Source of the DNA: Companilactobacillus kedongensis
GTDB lineage: Bacteria > Bacillota > Bacilli > Lactobacillales > Lactobacillaceae
Reading direction: 5' to 3'
Length of the DNA stretch: 64,000 bases
NCBI RefSeq assembly: GCF_003946625.1
Contig: NZ_RHOR01000011.1
Span: forward strand, 1 to 64,000
Shown here: positions 32,626-44,328 of the stretch, piece after piece
Position numbering within the stretch: position 1 is the first letter of the stretch
How the letters are laid out: the number at the start of each line of letters is the position of its first letter
Translations under genes and position numbers: made by a program
The notes under the pieces: model-generated
What the model saw: only the letters and a program-made list of their open reading frames with translations
Database searches by the model: none
What the model was told of the DNA's origin: nothing

Positions 32626-32993
32626 GGTAAATTTTGAGTAATCGCGGCCTAGTTATCTAGGCTGAGGAAAGTCCACGCCCGCACGGGCTGAGATGCTGGT
32701 AGTGTTCGTGCTTGGCCTAATAAGCCAAGGTACCTTTTGGTAACGGCAGCGAAAGCACTAAGGTTTTTGACTATGTGTTAATAGCTTGAAAGTGCCACAG
32801 AGACGTAGTGCTGAGAGAAATCTCAGCAGTGGAACGAGGTAAACCCCACGAGCGGGCAACCCAAACTTTGGTAGGGGCGCTTCATAACGAGAAATGAATC
32901 TACTGTGAAGGCATAATTGTAGATAGATGATTACTAACTGTATCGGACCGCCTAGTCGGTACATGAACAGAACGTGGCTTATAGAAATTTGCC
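32626..32993 (+). ncRNA. rnpB: RNase P RNA, bacterial class B
   Basis: The catalytic RNA of RNase P that trims tRNA 5' ends. GAGGAAAGTCC (about 32673-32683) and ACAGAACGTGGCTTA (32967-32981) are the two strands of the universal P4 helix region. The ends pair as P1: GGTAAATTT (32626-32634) with AAATTTGCC (32985-32993). Position after gpsB and before ypsC is the usual one in Firmicutes. Ends are set from P1 pairing and may be off by a few bases. Confidence 0.96.
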
Positions 32994-39314: not shown

Positions 39315-40206
39315 AGTTCAATTAACATTTAATGATGAAAAAAAATCTCGACTGGATAATTTTGTCAGTGAAAATTTGGCAGATCAGACGAGATCTCAAG
39401 TTCAAAAGTATATCAAAGACGGTAATATTTTAATTAATAAGAATATTGCTGAAAAAGCAGGATCTAAGGTGACTAAAGGGGATGTAATAGATATTACTAT
39501 TCCTGACGAAAAGCCGATCGAAGCTGTTGCTCAAGATATTCCTTTGGATGTGATTTATGAGGACTCTGATGTACTCGTAGTCAACAAGCCACAGGGAATG
39601 GTCGTACATCCCGCTGCTGGTCATCCAGATCATACTTTGGTCAACGCTATTTTATATCACAGCAAGATCAATGATGATGACATTTTAAGACCTGGTATTG
39701 TTCATCGAATCGATAAAGATACCTCAGGACTTCTAATGGTTGCTAAAAACGACTTAGCAAAGCAGTCTTTAATGAAACAATTAAAAGAAAAAACCAACTT
39801 GCGTGAGTATTTAGCAATTGTTCATGGTAATTTCAAGGAAACAAATGGTAAGATCAATGCTCCGTTAGGACGTTCAAAAAAAGATCGCAAGAAACAGGCT
39901 GTGGTCGATGATGGACGTTCAGCAGTGACACATTTCACTGTTTTGGAACAATTTGATGGATACTCATTGTTGCGTTTGAAGTTGGAAACTGGAAGAACTC
40001 ATCAAATTAGAGTGCATATGAAATACATTGGTCATCCAGTTGCCGGTGATCCACTTTACGGTCCCAAAAATACCCTAAAGGGTAATGGACAATTCTTACA
40101 TGCACAAAAATTGGGATTTGAACATCCCAGAACTCATAAATGGTTAGAATTCTCAATCGACCCACCAGCAATTTTTCAAGAAACTTTGAATAAACTGCGC
40201 AGTTGA
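39295..40206 (+). CDS. rluD: 23S rRNA pseudouridine synthase RluD
   Basis: 303 residues. N-terminal S4 RNA-binding domain (SRLDNFVSENLADQTRSQVQKYIKDGNILIN) and catalytic domain with PGIVHRIDKDTSGLLMVAK (catalytic Asp), GRTHQIRVHMKYIGHPVAGDPLYG. Isomerises uridines in helix 69 of 23S rRNA. The GTG start at 39295 has a weak RBS but follows from overlap with lspA. The pyrR promoter begins within its last codons. Confidence 0.95.
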   Translation: MINISNKVQLTFNDEKKSRLDNFVSENLADQTRSQVQKYIKDGNILINKNIAEKAGSKVTKGDVIDITIPDEKPIEAVAQDIPLDVIYEDSDVLVVNKPQGMVVHPAAGHPDHTLVNAILYHSKINDDDILRPGIVHRIDKDTSGLLMVAKNDLAKQSLMKQLKEKTNLREYLAIVHGNFKETNGKINAPLGRSKKDRKKQAVVDDGRSAVTHFTVLEQFDGYSLLRLKLETGRTHQIRVHMKYIGHPVAGDPLYGPKNTLKGNGQFLHAQKLGFEHPRTHKWLEFSIDPPAIFQETLNKLRS

Positions 40207-40229
40207 CAGTCATAGCTTAGTGCTATAAT
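40203..40229 (+). promoter_or_regulatory. Promoter of pyrR-carA-like-carB-like operon
   Basis: TTGACA (40203-40208) and TATAAT (40224-40229) with a 15-bp spacer and TG two bases before the -10 (extended -10). Start expected near 40236. Confidence 0.75.
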
Positions 40230-40244
40230 CTGAAAACAAGGTTA

Positions 40245-40828
<584 letters not shown>

Positions 40829-40849: not shown

Positions 40850-41938
40850 ATGAAACGATATTTAATTTTAGAAGATGGGACAGTCTTTCCAGGGGTCGGT
40901 TTTGGTTCATCCATTATTACTACTGGTCAGTTAGTTGTTTCAAATAATAGAACTGGTATTGAGCAATCCGTAACTGATCCGGATTCTGAAGGTCAGATAA
41001 TAGCTTTTACTGTGCCTGCAATTGGACTGTCAGGAATCAACCGAGATTTCTATGAATCAATTAACTCACAATGTAAAGGTGTCGTGATCGGTTCGTCAAG
41101 TTTGGCAACTGTCGATGGATCGATTCCCTTTGGTGAGTGGATCGAAACTTTAGGAATACCAGGCATTAAAAATGTTGATGTGAGAGCATTATCCAGACAT
41201 ATTGCTGAATATGGTGAGATGAAGGCCAGCATTATGGATACACATGATGAACACGCCATTGATCAGATCAAAGCCTTAGTTTTGCCACCTGATCTTGTTA
41301 AACGTGTCTCAACTAAGCAGTCGTATCCAAACCCTAATATGGGTATGAAGATGGTTGTAGTAGATTTAGGATTGAAATATTCTATCTTACGCCAGTTGTC
41401 ATATCGAGATTGTAATTCGGTTATCGTTAATTACAACGCTTCTCCTGAAGAAATTGAAAGTTTGCATCCAGATGGGATCATCTACTCTAATGGACCTGGT
41501 GATCCTACAGATTTACCGCAAACAATTGAAAATATTAAAGTACTTCAAAAAAAATACCCCATTTTAGGAATAGGGTTGGGCAATCTATTGATAGCTTTAG
41601 CTAATGATTGCAAGATCGAGTTATTAGATCAGCCACATCATGAGTCATCTTTAGCTGTTAAAGAAGTTGCCAGTGGCAAGATCGACTTTGTTAACCATAA
41701 CCATTCATATACGATCGACCCTAAGTATATTAGTGCGTCAGATTTTATCGTGACTAATATTTGTGTTGCGGACGGTAGTATCGAAGGTATGCGTCATGAA
41801 TATTTACCGATCATGTGTGTCTTATTTGAACCAGAGGCCGCACCAGGGCCCACGGACGGTTATTATGTTTTTGATGAATTTATTGATTTGATTGGTTCAA
41901 CTAAGAATCAATATGGAGGTGGAGATCAGTGGCAATAA
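40850..41938 (+). CDS. CarA-like protein lacking the glutaminase Cys-His pair
   Basis: 362 residues, the normal length of the small subunit of carbamoyl-phosphate synthetase. The N-terminal domain is well kept (RYLILEDGTVFPGVGFGS), as are IYSNGPGDP and the C-terminal EPEAAPGPTDGYYVFDEFI. However, the nucleophile loop, normally GICLGHQ, reads GIGLGNL (Gly242 for Cys), and the catalytic His of QxHPEA is Glu327 (LFEPEA); only Glu329 of the triad remains. Glutamine hydrolysis is therefore not expected. The frame is complete, with a GGAGG RBS, in operon with pyrR and overlapping the CarB-like gene by 10 bp. A pseudo-enzyme with a structural or sensory role, or a decaying paralogue of a functional carA elsewhere, are the two options. 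Confidence 0.9.
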   Translation: MKRYLILEDGTVFPGVGFGSSIITTGQLVVSNNRTGIEQSVTDPDSEGQIIAFTVPAIGLSGINRDFYESINSQCKGVVIGSSSLATVDGSIPFGEWIETLGIPGIKNVDVRALSRHIAEYGEMKASIMDTHDEHAIDQIKALVLPPDLVKRVSTKQSYPNPNMGMKMVVVDLGLKYSILRQLSYRDCNSVIVNYNASPEEIESLHPDGIIYSNGPGDPTDLPQTIENIKVLQKKYPILGIGLGNLLIALANDCKIELLDQPHHESSLAVKEVASGKIDFVNHNHSYTIDPKYISASDFIVTNICVADGSIEGMRHEYLPIMCVLFEPEAAPGPTDGYYVFDEFIDLIGSTKNQYGGGDQWQ

Positions 41939-44328
41939 GCGATGTGCATAATATTTTGATCATTGGTCCAACGGCCAGTGACAAGAATGTTGATCTTTCG
42001 ACTGCCCTATATGATACAGTTGAGATCCTTCATAAATTAGGCTTTAAAACTTCCATTATCGTTGAGGACCCAACGTCACTATTATCGTCTGGAGAATTTT
42101 TAGACCGAATTATTGTTGAAAGGGTTACTGGAGATAATATTTTAAAGTATCTAAATGATTATCATCCGGATGCTATTTTGCCAACCATCGGTGATAAGAA
42201 TGCACTGGGCATCATAGCTAGTTTAAATGGCAAGATAAGTAATATAAGAATTCTAGGGACTAATTATCTAGCCTCTTTGGCAACATTTAAACGTGAATTA
42301 TTCATAAAAAAATTGAGTCAAAATAACTTACCAGTTATCAATTTTGTTTCTTCTGATGATGAGACTGAGATTTACAGTTTTATTAGGAAAATCGGTTTTC
42401 CGATCATTGCGAGAAGAAAATATTCTAATCGTCATTTTAGTGGTTGGACAAATATCAATAATTTGTTTGAACTCGATAATTTTATGTCACTTGAAGACTT
42501 AGAAGATACTAAAATCGAAATTGAGCGCAGTATCCGTGGCTTTAGTGAGTATTCATTCACAGTCATGCGTGATCGTTATGAAAATGCTGCTTTAGTGGGT
42601 ACTATTGAAGATATTGAGCCTATTGGTATTCACCATTTGGATTCTAACTTGATTTCTCCAGCAGTTTCACTCAATGACTCTAAGTTACAGAAGCTGCGTA
42701 ACTATTCGATCCAGTTAGCTCAGGTTTTTAACGTTGTTGGCGCCTGTACAGTCCATTTTGCTTACAATCATAAAACTAACGAGTGCTACATTACCGAATT
42801 TATTCCGCGGTTAAGTGAGGAGACAAAGTTTCTTGAGTACGCTACGAGTTACCCTTTAGCCACAGTAGTAGTGGAACTCAGTCTAGGTTATCATCTTGAC
42901 AAAGTGCAACTAGATTCTGGTAGTAACTTCAATGGTGCCACAGAGCCGTTTGTTGACCATATAACTTCACGTTTTCCATTGTGGACTGATCCTAAGCAAC
43001 GTTATTTAGGACCAAGTAAGACGTCTAATTCTAGTATTGTCGTCAATGGCTTTAGTATTGAAGAAGTACTTAATCGTGGTGCCTTGAACGATAAAATAAA
43101 TGACAACTTGGAACGATATAATGAGTTGCACAAGTTAGATGATGACGAACTATTCGAAAAAATCATCCATCCAACCAATTGGATGTTAGATGTTTTACTG
43201 GAAGCCTTGAGAAGAAAATTTGAGATTCCAGTTTTATCTGAGATAACCAGTATAAATGTTCCGTATTTAGTTGCTCTCCAAAATGTTATCGATAACAGTG
43301 CCGTTATTCGTGACGATGAGGTTGATGAAAATAATATTGAGCGTTTAGTTGATTATGGGATCAAGGGCGTTGGTAACAGCAAGCTTCTAAAGAATCGCGA
43401 TGATATTGTTACTCGGACGGTTGTTAAGAGTAAGCGTGCTGTCGGTGCATCCGGTCCAGGATTTATGAATCATAACTATTTTGTTACAAGTGGTATTTCT
43501 AATGATATCGACTTCAATGAGCGTAATAAGATCATTGTACGGTCGCCAATAATTACTTCTAAGACAGATATTATGGTGCGTCAGTTCGTTTTGCTGCAAC
43601 TTGTTAAATCAATTGAGCAAAATGGCTTAGAGGCAGTTGTCATTGGACGTGAGCCTTGGACGGCTCCATTATCAGTTCGTTACAAGGTACTTGAAATCGA
43701 CGATCCACATCGCGAGATGCGTGATCTCAAATTGATACCAGATGATAAAATTTTTAAGGTGATCGACTTTTCTAAAGTTTGGAATCTTGATGCTGGAGAC
43801 ACTGAGAACGAAGATGTCTTTCCAATCAATGCTCGTGAGATCAAGAATGTTAATATTACCGGTGATACGACTATCAAAGTAATGGTGGTTACTGATGGTA
43901 ATAACTATTTAGCACCATCAATTATCTATCGAACAGTTAAAAATTCTCAAACATACGAAATAAGCGATTTTAATAACTTTTTGAGTGTGGAGAATAAGGA
44001 TGAAATTCTAACTATAATAAAGCATGAATTGGATCTATATAAAGAGATAAATATCTTTAATTTAGAGATAGTTAGAAGAAATGATCATTGGGTCGTAACT
44101 AAGATACATGAAGGGATGACTGAAGATATTATTAGACATGAATTGGCTAGTTCTGTTCACGTTATCGATACTTTGGTTAAGCTCATATTAGGTAATAAGA
44201 TTGATGATGGATTATCTTTAGATGAAATTTTCAAAAATTATGATACTAATTATTTAGTCACAACAAATGATAAAAAATACCAACTTTTAGATTATGATGG
44301 TGTTCAAGAACTACTTAAAAAGCTATAA
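41929..44328 (+). CDS. CarB-like protein, shortened and with degenerate ATP-grasp sites
   Basis: 799 residues instead of about 1060. Residues 1-400 follow the first half of CarB (DAILPTIGDKNALGI, RILGTN, IRGFSEYSFTVMRDR, PIGIHHLDSN), 405-460 its oligomerisation domain (HPTNWMLDVLLEALRRKFEIP), and 500-590 the second pre-ATP-grasp domain. The glycine-rich ATP loop is lost (ARRKYSNRHFSGW), the metal ligands corresponding to QLA and EVNPR have become HFA (276-278) and EFIPR (290-294), and the second ATP-grasp is reduced to about 150 residues with KIHEG at the EVNPR place. No C-terminal MGS allosteric domain remains. It starts with GTG after GGAGGTGGAG. Carbamoyl-phosphate synthesis is not expected. 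Confidence 0.88.
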   Translation: MAISDVHNILIIGPTASDKNVDLSTALYDTVEILHKLGFKTSIIVEDPTSLLSSGEFLDRIIVERVTGDNILKYLNDYHPDAILPTIGDKNALGIIASLNGKISNIRILGTNYLASLATFKRELFIKKLSQNNLPVINFVSSDDETEIYSFIRKIGFPIIARRKYSNRHFSGWTNINNLFELDNFMSLEDLEDTKIEIERSIRGFSEYSFTVMRDRYENAALVGTIEDIEPIGIHHLDSNLISPAVSLNDSKLQKLRNYSIQLAQVFNVVGACTVHFAYNHKTNECYITEFIPRLSEETKFLEYATSYPLATVVVELSLGYHLDKVQLDSGSNFNGATEPFVDHITSRFPLWTDPKQRYLGPSKTSNSSIVVNGFSIEEVLNRGALNDKINDNLERYNELHKLDDDELFEKIIHPTNWMLDVLLEALRRKFEIPVLSEITSINVPYLVALQNVIDNSAVIRDDEVDENNIERLVDYGIKGVGNSKLLKNRDDIVTRTVVKSKRAVGASGPGFMNHNYFVTSGISNDIDFNERNKIIVRSPIITSKTDIMVRQFVLLQLVKSIEQNGLEAVVIGREPWTAPLSVRYKVLEIDDPHREMRDLKLIPDDKIFKVIDFSKVWNLDAGDTENEDVFPINAREIKNVNITGDTTIKVMVVTDGNNYLAPSIIYRTVKNSQTYEISDFNNFLSVENKDEILTIIKHELDLYKEINIFNLEIVRRNDHWVVTKIHEGMTEDIIRHELASSVHVIDTLVKLILGNKIDDGLSLDEIFKNYDTNYLVTTNDKKYQLLDYDGVQELLKKL

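Follow-up and report, generated by a model that had tools for sequence, protein, structure and literature searches.

A pyrR-linked pair of apparently inactive carbamoyl phosphate synthetase homologues conserved in Companilactobacillus and other Lactobacillaceae

In the present study, we describe two genes that lie directly after pyrR in a stretch of 64,000 nucleotides from Companilactobacillus kedongensis (NCBI RefSeq assembly GCF_003946625.1, contig NZ_RHOR01000011.1, positions 1 to 64,000 of the forward strand; the whole stretch is hereafter the window), and whose products resemble the small and the large subunit of carbamoyl phosphate synthetase (CPSase; CarA and CarB) and are predicted to have lost catalysis. 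All three genes read along the forward strand. The pyrR gene (40307..40828, 173 amino acids) scores 277.5 bits against NF003548 (cut-off 218), keeps the phosphoribosyl pyrophosphate (PRPP) motif DDVLYTGRT in alignment and, as a single strong match, encodes the only PyrR of its own genome. It is followed by PsicarA (40850..41938, 362 amino acids), which sequence comparison marks as encoding a putatively dead CarA-like small subunit, and, with a 10-base overlap, by PsicarB (41929..44328, 799 amino acids, GTG start), for a putatively dead and shortened CarB-like large subunit. The nearest named locus is that of Companilactobacillus keshanensis (96%), in the family Lactobacillaceae. A normal carA-carB pair (362 and 1050 amino acids) is present on another contig of the same genome (G000, locus L030), and the pyr operon of this genome, also elsewhere (pyrB-C-F-E-D), carries the PyrR-binding RNA element RF00515, with the sole PyrR sitting beside the Psi pair. 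Before pyrB of that operon stands a tandem pair of PyrR elements, of which one exceeds the gathering score and the other falls short of it (L088 7796-7883; G000:C32:135900-135987).

A preliminary description of the window had reported a CarB homologue of reduced length with a replaced glycine-rich loop, QLA changed to HFA and EVNPR to EFIPR, and alignment bears all of this out. Compared with the 1050-residue normal CarB of its own genome, PsiCarB reads IARRKYSNRHFSGWT for IVRPAFTMGGTGGG, CTVHFAYN for CNVQLALD and TEFIPRLSEET for IEVNPRVSRSS, and alignment to Escherichia coli CarB gives the same picture for site 1. Residues 161-173 (42409..42447, forward strand), aligned in the place of the site-1 glycine loop, are now ARRKYSNRHFSGW, a block common to all 26 related loci with three variable positions. 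Among the site-1 magnesium ligands (42754..42810, forward strand; alignments), Gln has become His276 and Asn has become Ile292, both invariant in a 22-row alignment, with Glu290 and Arg294 kept; the E. coli ligands are Q285, E299 and N301. In Companilactobacillus, the alignment letters show that site 1 retains residues equivalent to R129, R169, E215, H243, E299 and R303 of E. coli CarB. An intact ATP site was to count against the preliminary description, and sequence alignment found none.

At site 2, the VRPSYVLGGRAME stretch is absent, and the IEVNPRASRT stretch is unlike or absent, in the window and in all 20 loci from other genera described below, and the site-1 loop is changed throughout this set as well. 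Within Companilactobacillus, PsiCarB residues 480-799 (43366..44325, forward strand) form a C-terminal part in which Pfam and hhalign recognise no domain: no Pfam family matches at E-values up to 1, and hhalign aligns only 62 columns with the second half of CPSase, at 7% probability. In six rows from other genera, profile comparison does recognise that second half (99.9%). Thus, the earlier view that the second ATP-grasp domain has been cut to about 150 residues can, within the genus, be upheld by position only, residues 480-799 being unrecognisable. The reported absence of an MGS-like allosteric domain holds, Pfam giving no match in PsiCarB, whereas the normal CarB of the same genome has the domain. 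The protein reaches 208.3 bits against NCBIfam TIGR01369, below the cut-off of 1027. The pre-ATP-grasp and first ATP-grasp domains exceed their Pfam cut-offs; to say that the oligomerisation region was kept too was generous, for it matches weakly (18.7 bits, cut-off 26.6) and the Psi rows retain 0.49 of its 28 invariant columns. Eight residues, numbered here after the normal CarB of the same genome (R222, D223, E235, G241, D246, S247, P252 and R265), show no change across 21 Psi CarBs. Taken together, it is well supported, at the level of sequence, that PsiCarB is a CPSase large-subunit homologue predicted to be catalytically dead.

The small subunit appears to have suffered a parallel loss. 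Relative to normal CarA, the catalytic Cys of PsiCarA is replaced by Gly242 (codon 41573-41575; GICLGHQ to GIGLGNL) and the catalytic His by Glu327 (codon 41828-41830; YHPDAAPGPHD to FEPEAAPGPTD); the E. coli CarA entry used for alignment itself shows Ser at the Cys position. Across the window and 20 loci, the Cys is Gly in 21 of 21 Psi CarA rows and the His of YHPD is lost in as many, so that PsiCarA is probably dead as a glutaminase. The protein nevertheless passes NCBIfam NF009475 (341.6 bits, cut-off 221) and falls slightly under TIGR01368 (297.2 vs 307.35). Of the CarA columns invariant in 16 functional rows, the Psi rows keep on average 0.74 of 39 in the N-terminal domain and 0.61 of 68 in the glutaminase domain, and the better-kept N-terminal domain would be consistent with retained pairing. 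The suggestion that the retained parts are those of subunit contact gains weak support, the oligomerisation region of PsiCarB staying under its cut-off. Sequence gives good support to the broader claim that a pseudo-CPSase of two subunits stands beside pyrR, and such pairs extend much more widely than the window. One candidate signature, the CarA motif MKASI..D..DEHA.DQ, was rejected as Psi-specific; it is ancestral instead, being shared by the functional CarAs of L095-L097 at the same place.

Scanning species genomes with the 799-residue protein gave 26 distinct loci, 25 from Companilactobacillus and one from an uncultured Lactobacillus metagenome-assembled genome; absence from close relatives, which would have spoken against the pair, was thus not observed, the pair being present in all 26. 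The order pyrR, PsicarA, PsicarB is the same in every one, with a pyrR-PsicarA gap of 17-49 bases, a PsicarA/PsicarB junction at which the two genes either overlap (by 10 or 7 bases) or leave a single base between them, and PsiCarB orthologues of 796-805 amino acids (the PsiCarA of L016 is shorter, at 358). GIGLG, FEPEA, TEFIPR, CT[AV]HFA and ARR..SNRH.SGW are present in 26 of 26 loci, and the frames are open. Over 12 species pairs, some sharing a species, the median ratio of nonsynonymous to synonymous substitution rates (dN/dS) is 0.012 for PsicarA and 0.024 for PsicarB, compared with 0.033 for rluD, 0.014 for pyrR, 0.024 for rqcH and 0.038 for degV; synonymous divergence (dS) is saturated in many pairs and the medians omit the non-finite ones (4 of 12 for PsicarB, 3 of 11 for rqcH, 1 of 12 for rluD). 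Both values thus lie within or under the range of rluD, rqcH and degV (0.024-0.038), and the low-divergence pairs agree (PsicarA/PsicarB 0.012/0.020 for L013-L017 and 0.012/0.027 for the window and L004). Because the same losses recur in 26 of 26 relatives and dN/dS is low, PsicarA and PsicarB are not decaying and are under strong selection; a decaying pseudogene is rejected on these ratios and on the open frames.

The pair is not an oddity of Companilactobacillus. A 22-row profile found short CarB-like open reading frames (ORFs) in other genera of the family, from which we took 20 loci in 15 genera, a selected set picked for short frames. In all 20, a CarA-like gene precedes a CarB-like gene of 789-884 amino acids counted from the first possible start, or of 643 amino acids in L066. 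The pyrR gene is directly upstream in 16, one uracil permease away in L066, and absent in L078-L080; rluD lies upstream in 19 (not in L073). The next gene is rqcH in 11 loci; in two others one or two ORFs separate it from the pair, and in the remaining seven it was not observed. In a large Psi group, to which the probable Lactiplantibacillus plantarum genome discussed below belongs, none of the 15 rows retains E299 or R303. With a broader profile (A2), for which a Psi call meant a short frame and a match reaching at least position 802 of 834, a shortened CarB was found, among the matches listed, in 27 of the 48 family genomes in a 295-genome sample of the order. Of the other 247 genomes, none had, again among the matches listed, one going beyond about position 632, which is the pattern of normal CarB. 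A restriction to Companilactobacillus is ruled out by the loci from 15 other genera together with these 27 genomes.

The position of the pair points to where it came from. Nine of 13 fetched pyr/car loci follow lspA-rluD with pyrR-(pyrP)-pyrB-pyrC-carA-carB-...-pyrF-pyrE, two of them in another family of the order (L157, L158) and seven in the family of the window (L148-L152, L154, L155); rqcH comes within three ORFs of the operon in five of the nine, and in the remaining four loci (L153, L156, L159, L160) rluD is missing from the stretch. Where the nine have the operon, Psi loci have only pyrR(-pyrP)-PsicarA-PsicarB. Intermediates were also found: in L066 (g22), pyrF and pyrE still follow the 643-residue PsicarB, and in L092, L109 and L110 (g21) pyrR-pyrP-carA-carB is followed by rqcH, which in L109 comes after one small ORF. 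In L094 (g10) and L093 (g33), CarB is full length and damaged at both EVNPR motifs, the CarA Cys being still present in L093, and g33 is mixed, L114 and L116 keeping the pyr operon after rluD. Because relatives keep the whole operon at the same place and intermediates exist, it is well supported that the Psi pair is a remnant of an ancestral pyr operon, kept as pseudoenzymes. As a separate observation, the g21 CPSase looks half-dead, with the CarA Cys lost in three of three and a full-length CarB whose site-1 motifs are intact and whose site-2 motifs are lost.

The trees differ on the number of times that catalysis was lost. The CarA tree splits the Psi rows, and their grouping is rejected by the approximately unbiased (AU) test, with p-AU of 0.0038 for 26 Psi and intermediate rows and 0.0147 for 20 Psi rows without L066, in a test that dropped CAN_cL102, held one Companilactobacillus row and used groups named after the first tree was seen. 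The CarB tree unites all Psi and intermediate rows with a Shimodaira-Hasegawa-like approximate likelihood ratio test (SH-aLRT) support of 99, on very long branches and with four further Companilactobacillus rows dropped. With the two trees in disagreement, catalysis may have been lost once or several times.

Upstream of the genes, a likely promoter of the pyrR-PsicarA-PsicarB operon (40203..40229, forward strand) overlaps the end of rluD and consists of TTGACA, 15 bases, and TATAAT preceded by TGC as an extended -10. Its TGCTATAAT was found in 15 of 21 aligned Companilactobacillus leaders, an alignment of the window with 20 of the 26 related loci. A consensus scan did not list this site, the 15-base spacing being beyond its range, and it found promoter-like sites across the region in no excess (22 vs 19.1 expected). 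Between the putative promoter and pyrR lies an attenuator-like terminator (40260..40287, forward strand), a 12-pair hairpin followed by a U run; the 75-base leader folds at -20.9 kcal/mol (z -4.75), and a hairpin with a T run was seen by eye in 19 of the 21 leaders, being altered in L021 and L022. The terminator scan did not list the hairpin, and no RF00515 match appeared at window 40100-40340 at E-values up to 10. With a promoter-like sequence and an attenuator-like hairpin but no PyrR element, the operon may therefore be controlled by another signal. In G069 (g35), unlike the window, the pyrR-PsicarAB genes are preceded, at a distance of 12 bases, by a sub-threshold PyrR RNA element (G069:C5:234912-234996; 41.6 bits against a gathering score of 54). 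Elsewhere in the window, a bacterial class B RNase P RNA was found at 32630-32986 (312.7 bits).

Co-occurrence was followed in 33 Psi genomes, the 27 of the sample and six that were picked (G008, G105, G178, G035, G069 and G258). The preliminary description had proposed looking at the pair together with pyrR. All 33 genomes have PyrR, which by position adjoins the pair in 30 and lies elsewhere in G002, G005 and G045, with a single PyrR at E-values up to 1e-25 in 29 and two in four genomes (g38). A CarB above the TIGR01369 cut-off exists in 22 of the 33, PsiCarB being the sole match in the other 11; pyrB is above its cut-off in 26, and all seven genomes without it are among those 11. An RF00515 element is found in 32 at E-values up to 1e-3, 20 of them above the gathering score. 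Within these 33 genomes, the pair outlives the pathway of its origin, and PyrR is always present. Four genomes (G102, G043, G035 and G069) have pyrB but no CarB over the cut-off, and arginine deiminase is above its cut-off in all four; there, arginine may supply the carbamoyl phosphate needed for pyrimidines, and these genomes are therefore no proof that the pair makes it.

L. plantarum offers a link to physiology. Genome G258 is probably of this species, its pyruvate oxidase having one difference in 603 residues to PDB 4fee, an entry that we take to be from L. plantarum. The pyr operon of G258 is arranged as pyrR1-B-C-Aa-Ab-D-F-E, and the L. plantarum tags lp_2704 to lp_2699 give the same order as far as pyrD (PMC7645587). 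Apart from this operon, G258 has lspA-rluD-pyrR-PsicarA-PsicarB together (360 and 853 amino acids for the pair), with a PyrR 64% identical to PyrR1. In L. plantarum, pyrR2 is lp_1782 (PMC7911632), and PyrR1 and PyrR2 answer to pyrimidines and inorganic carbon (PMC3582564). Because pyrR2, PsicarA and PsicarB stand together in G258, PsiCarAB is a candidate part of the inorganic-carbon response. Deletion of pyrR2 in L. plantarum reportedly made growth depend on high CO2, and earlier published work on the species (J. Bacteriol. 2006; Microbiology 2008) is said to deal with PyrR2.

We propose, at a rough probability of 0.45, that PsiCarAB acts as a regulatory partner of PyrR. PsiCarA and PsiCarB would be made together with PyrR and would form a catalytically silent CPSase-like complex, and this complex would partner PyrR, altering the way in which PyrR controls the leader RNAs of pyrimidine genes. 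For L. plantarum, it would belong to the machinery for PyrR2-dependent inorganic-carbon control of the pyr operon, and the deletion of pyrR2 may partly report lost or altered PsiCarAB expression. The proposal draws on the losses in both subunits, the selection, the synteny, the co-occurrence with PyrR and the persistence without a normal CarB, as well as on the RF00515 elements of 32 of the 33 genomes, on the placing of the sole PyrR of the window's own genome with the pair and of RF00515 with its distant pyr operon, and on the pyrR2-PsicarA-PsicarB order of G258. A bolder version appears doubtful: that PsiCarAB is a sensing partner of the adjacent PyrR, reading bicarbonate, carbamoyl phosphate or, where active CPSase is present, its assembly state, and passing the signal to the RNA-binding attenuation protein, so that the L. 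plantarum PyrR2 carbon response would be a property of a PyrR2-PsiCarA-PsiCarB complex, in a design that many Lactobacillaceae would share and that may have arisen more than once.

Several observations weigh against a partnership with PyrR. PyrR is common, so that 33 of 33, counted in pair-bearing genomes only, weighs little, and the adjacency of pyrR and the pair may be inherited from the old operon. Nor is the linkage strict, because G002, G005 and G045 have no pyrR beside the pair, and G060 has the pair and pyrR with no RF00515 match (E-values up to 1e-3) and no pyrB. The absence of E299 and R303 from all 15 rows of the large group makes it unlikely that site 1 serves there as a sensor of bicarbonate or ATP, and it disfavours the idea that every member senses bicarbonate at that site; Companilactobacillus retains more of these residues.

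Rather unlikely, but best placed among the alternatives, is a new enzyme or ligand-binding protein, in which site 1 or the glutaminase pocket would have been rebuilt, for example for carbamoyl phosphate or a nucleotide. The six site-1 equivalents kept in Companilactobacillus, the ARR..SNRH.SGW block in 26 of 26 loci and the eight unchanged residues of 21 Psi CarBs would suit such a pocket; against this, the glycine loop and the Gln and Asn magnesium ligands are gone, no second site is recognisable, the large group has lost E299 and R303 throughout, and the four genomes with pyrB and no normal CarB all possess arginine deiminase as a carbamoyl phosphate source.

It is quite unlikely that the pair modulates, scaffolds or decoys active CPSase, with mixed oligomers of Psi and normal subunits altering activity or feedback; a scaffold or decoy function was what the preliminary description had held plausible. 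The well-kept N-terminal domain of PsiCarA (0.74 of 39 columns) and the normal CarB of 22 of the 33 genomes agree with it, but 11 of the 33 have no such CarB, seven of these having no pyrB either, so that decoying active CPSase cannot be what the pair does in general; the oligomerisation region, at 0.49 of its invariant columns and below the Pfam cut-off in the window, speaks against it as well. The decoy idea is accordingly weakened.

Slightly less likely still is a role unrelated to pyrimidine signals and kept through the operon, such as stabilising PyrR or another protein: the pair does persist in the seven genomes that have neither a normal CarB nor pyrB and, in the case of G060, where RF00515 finds no match, but no positive evidence speaks for such a role, and PyrR and the pair stand apart in three genomes. 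That the pair is a disappearing relict of the old pyr operon, with no function left, is hardly credible, for although it occupies the place of the whole operon of relatives, intermediates exist and the L066 copy is reduced to 643 amino acids, the median dN/dS of 0.012 (12 pairs) and 0.024 (the 8 of 12 pairs with finite dS), the frames that stay open in all 26 loci and share the same losses, and the short ORFs found, among the matches listed, in 27 of the 48 genomes of the family say otherwise.

Compared with CPSase itself (CarAB or PyrAA-PyrAB; E. coli structures 1bxr and 1c30), the Psi pair has homologous subunits in the same order and a full-length PsiCarA, but it lacks the glutaminase Cys and His, has a broken site 1, no recognisable site 2 and no MGS domain, and falls below the cut-offs of TIGR01369 and TIGR01368. 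Vertebrate CPS1 (human entry 5dot) is a natural CPSase with a dead glutaminase, its Cys replaced and its synthetase sites kept; the loss of the Cys is common to both, whereas the Psi pair has lost the synthetase sites too. In the L. plantarum PyrR2 system, published as a control of the pyr operon by inorganic carbon, the PyrR beside the pair in G258 is the second PyrR, 64% identical to PyrR1. The PyrR-regulated whole pyr operon, which Bacillus also has, occupies in L157 and L158 the same place after lspA-rluD as the Psi pair, from which the Psi locus differs in being reduced to pyrR, the two apparently dead CPSase genes and, in some genera, a uracil permease.

Regulatory pseudoenzymes are a known kind, and we know of no pseudo-CPSase. 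The view of the pair as a candidate for an undescribed system holds in so far as no description of a dead CPSase pair was found among the open-access papers listed (pseudo-CPSase, pyrAa2/pyrAb2, lp_1779-lp_1784, and Companilactobacillus CPSase/pyrR); it does not hold for the genes as such, since those of L. plantarum have reportedly been given names as a second set of CPS genes; the gene names of the pyr operon there carry the suffix 1, implying that duplicates were noticed long ago.

Because PsiCarA passes NF009475, a curated equivalog model for carbamoyl phosphate synthase, without the catalytic Cys and His, automatic annotation and metabolic models may credit a working CPSase, a risk that exists wherever the pair occurs, PsiCarB being the sole CarB found in 11 of the 33 Psi genomes. 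If the pair does work with PyrR, it would provide a concrete and testable part for how lactobacilli sense CO2 or bicarbonate through PyrR2.

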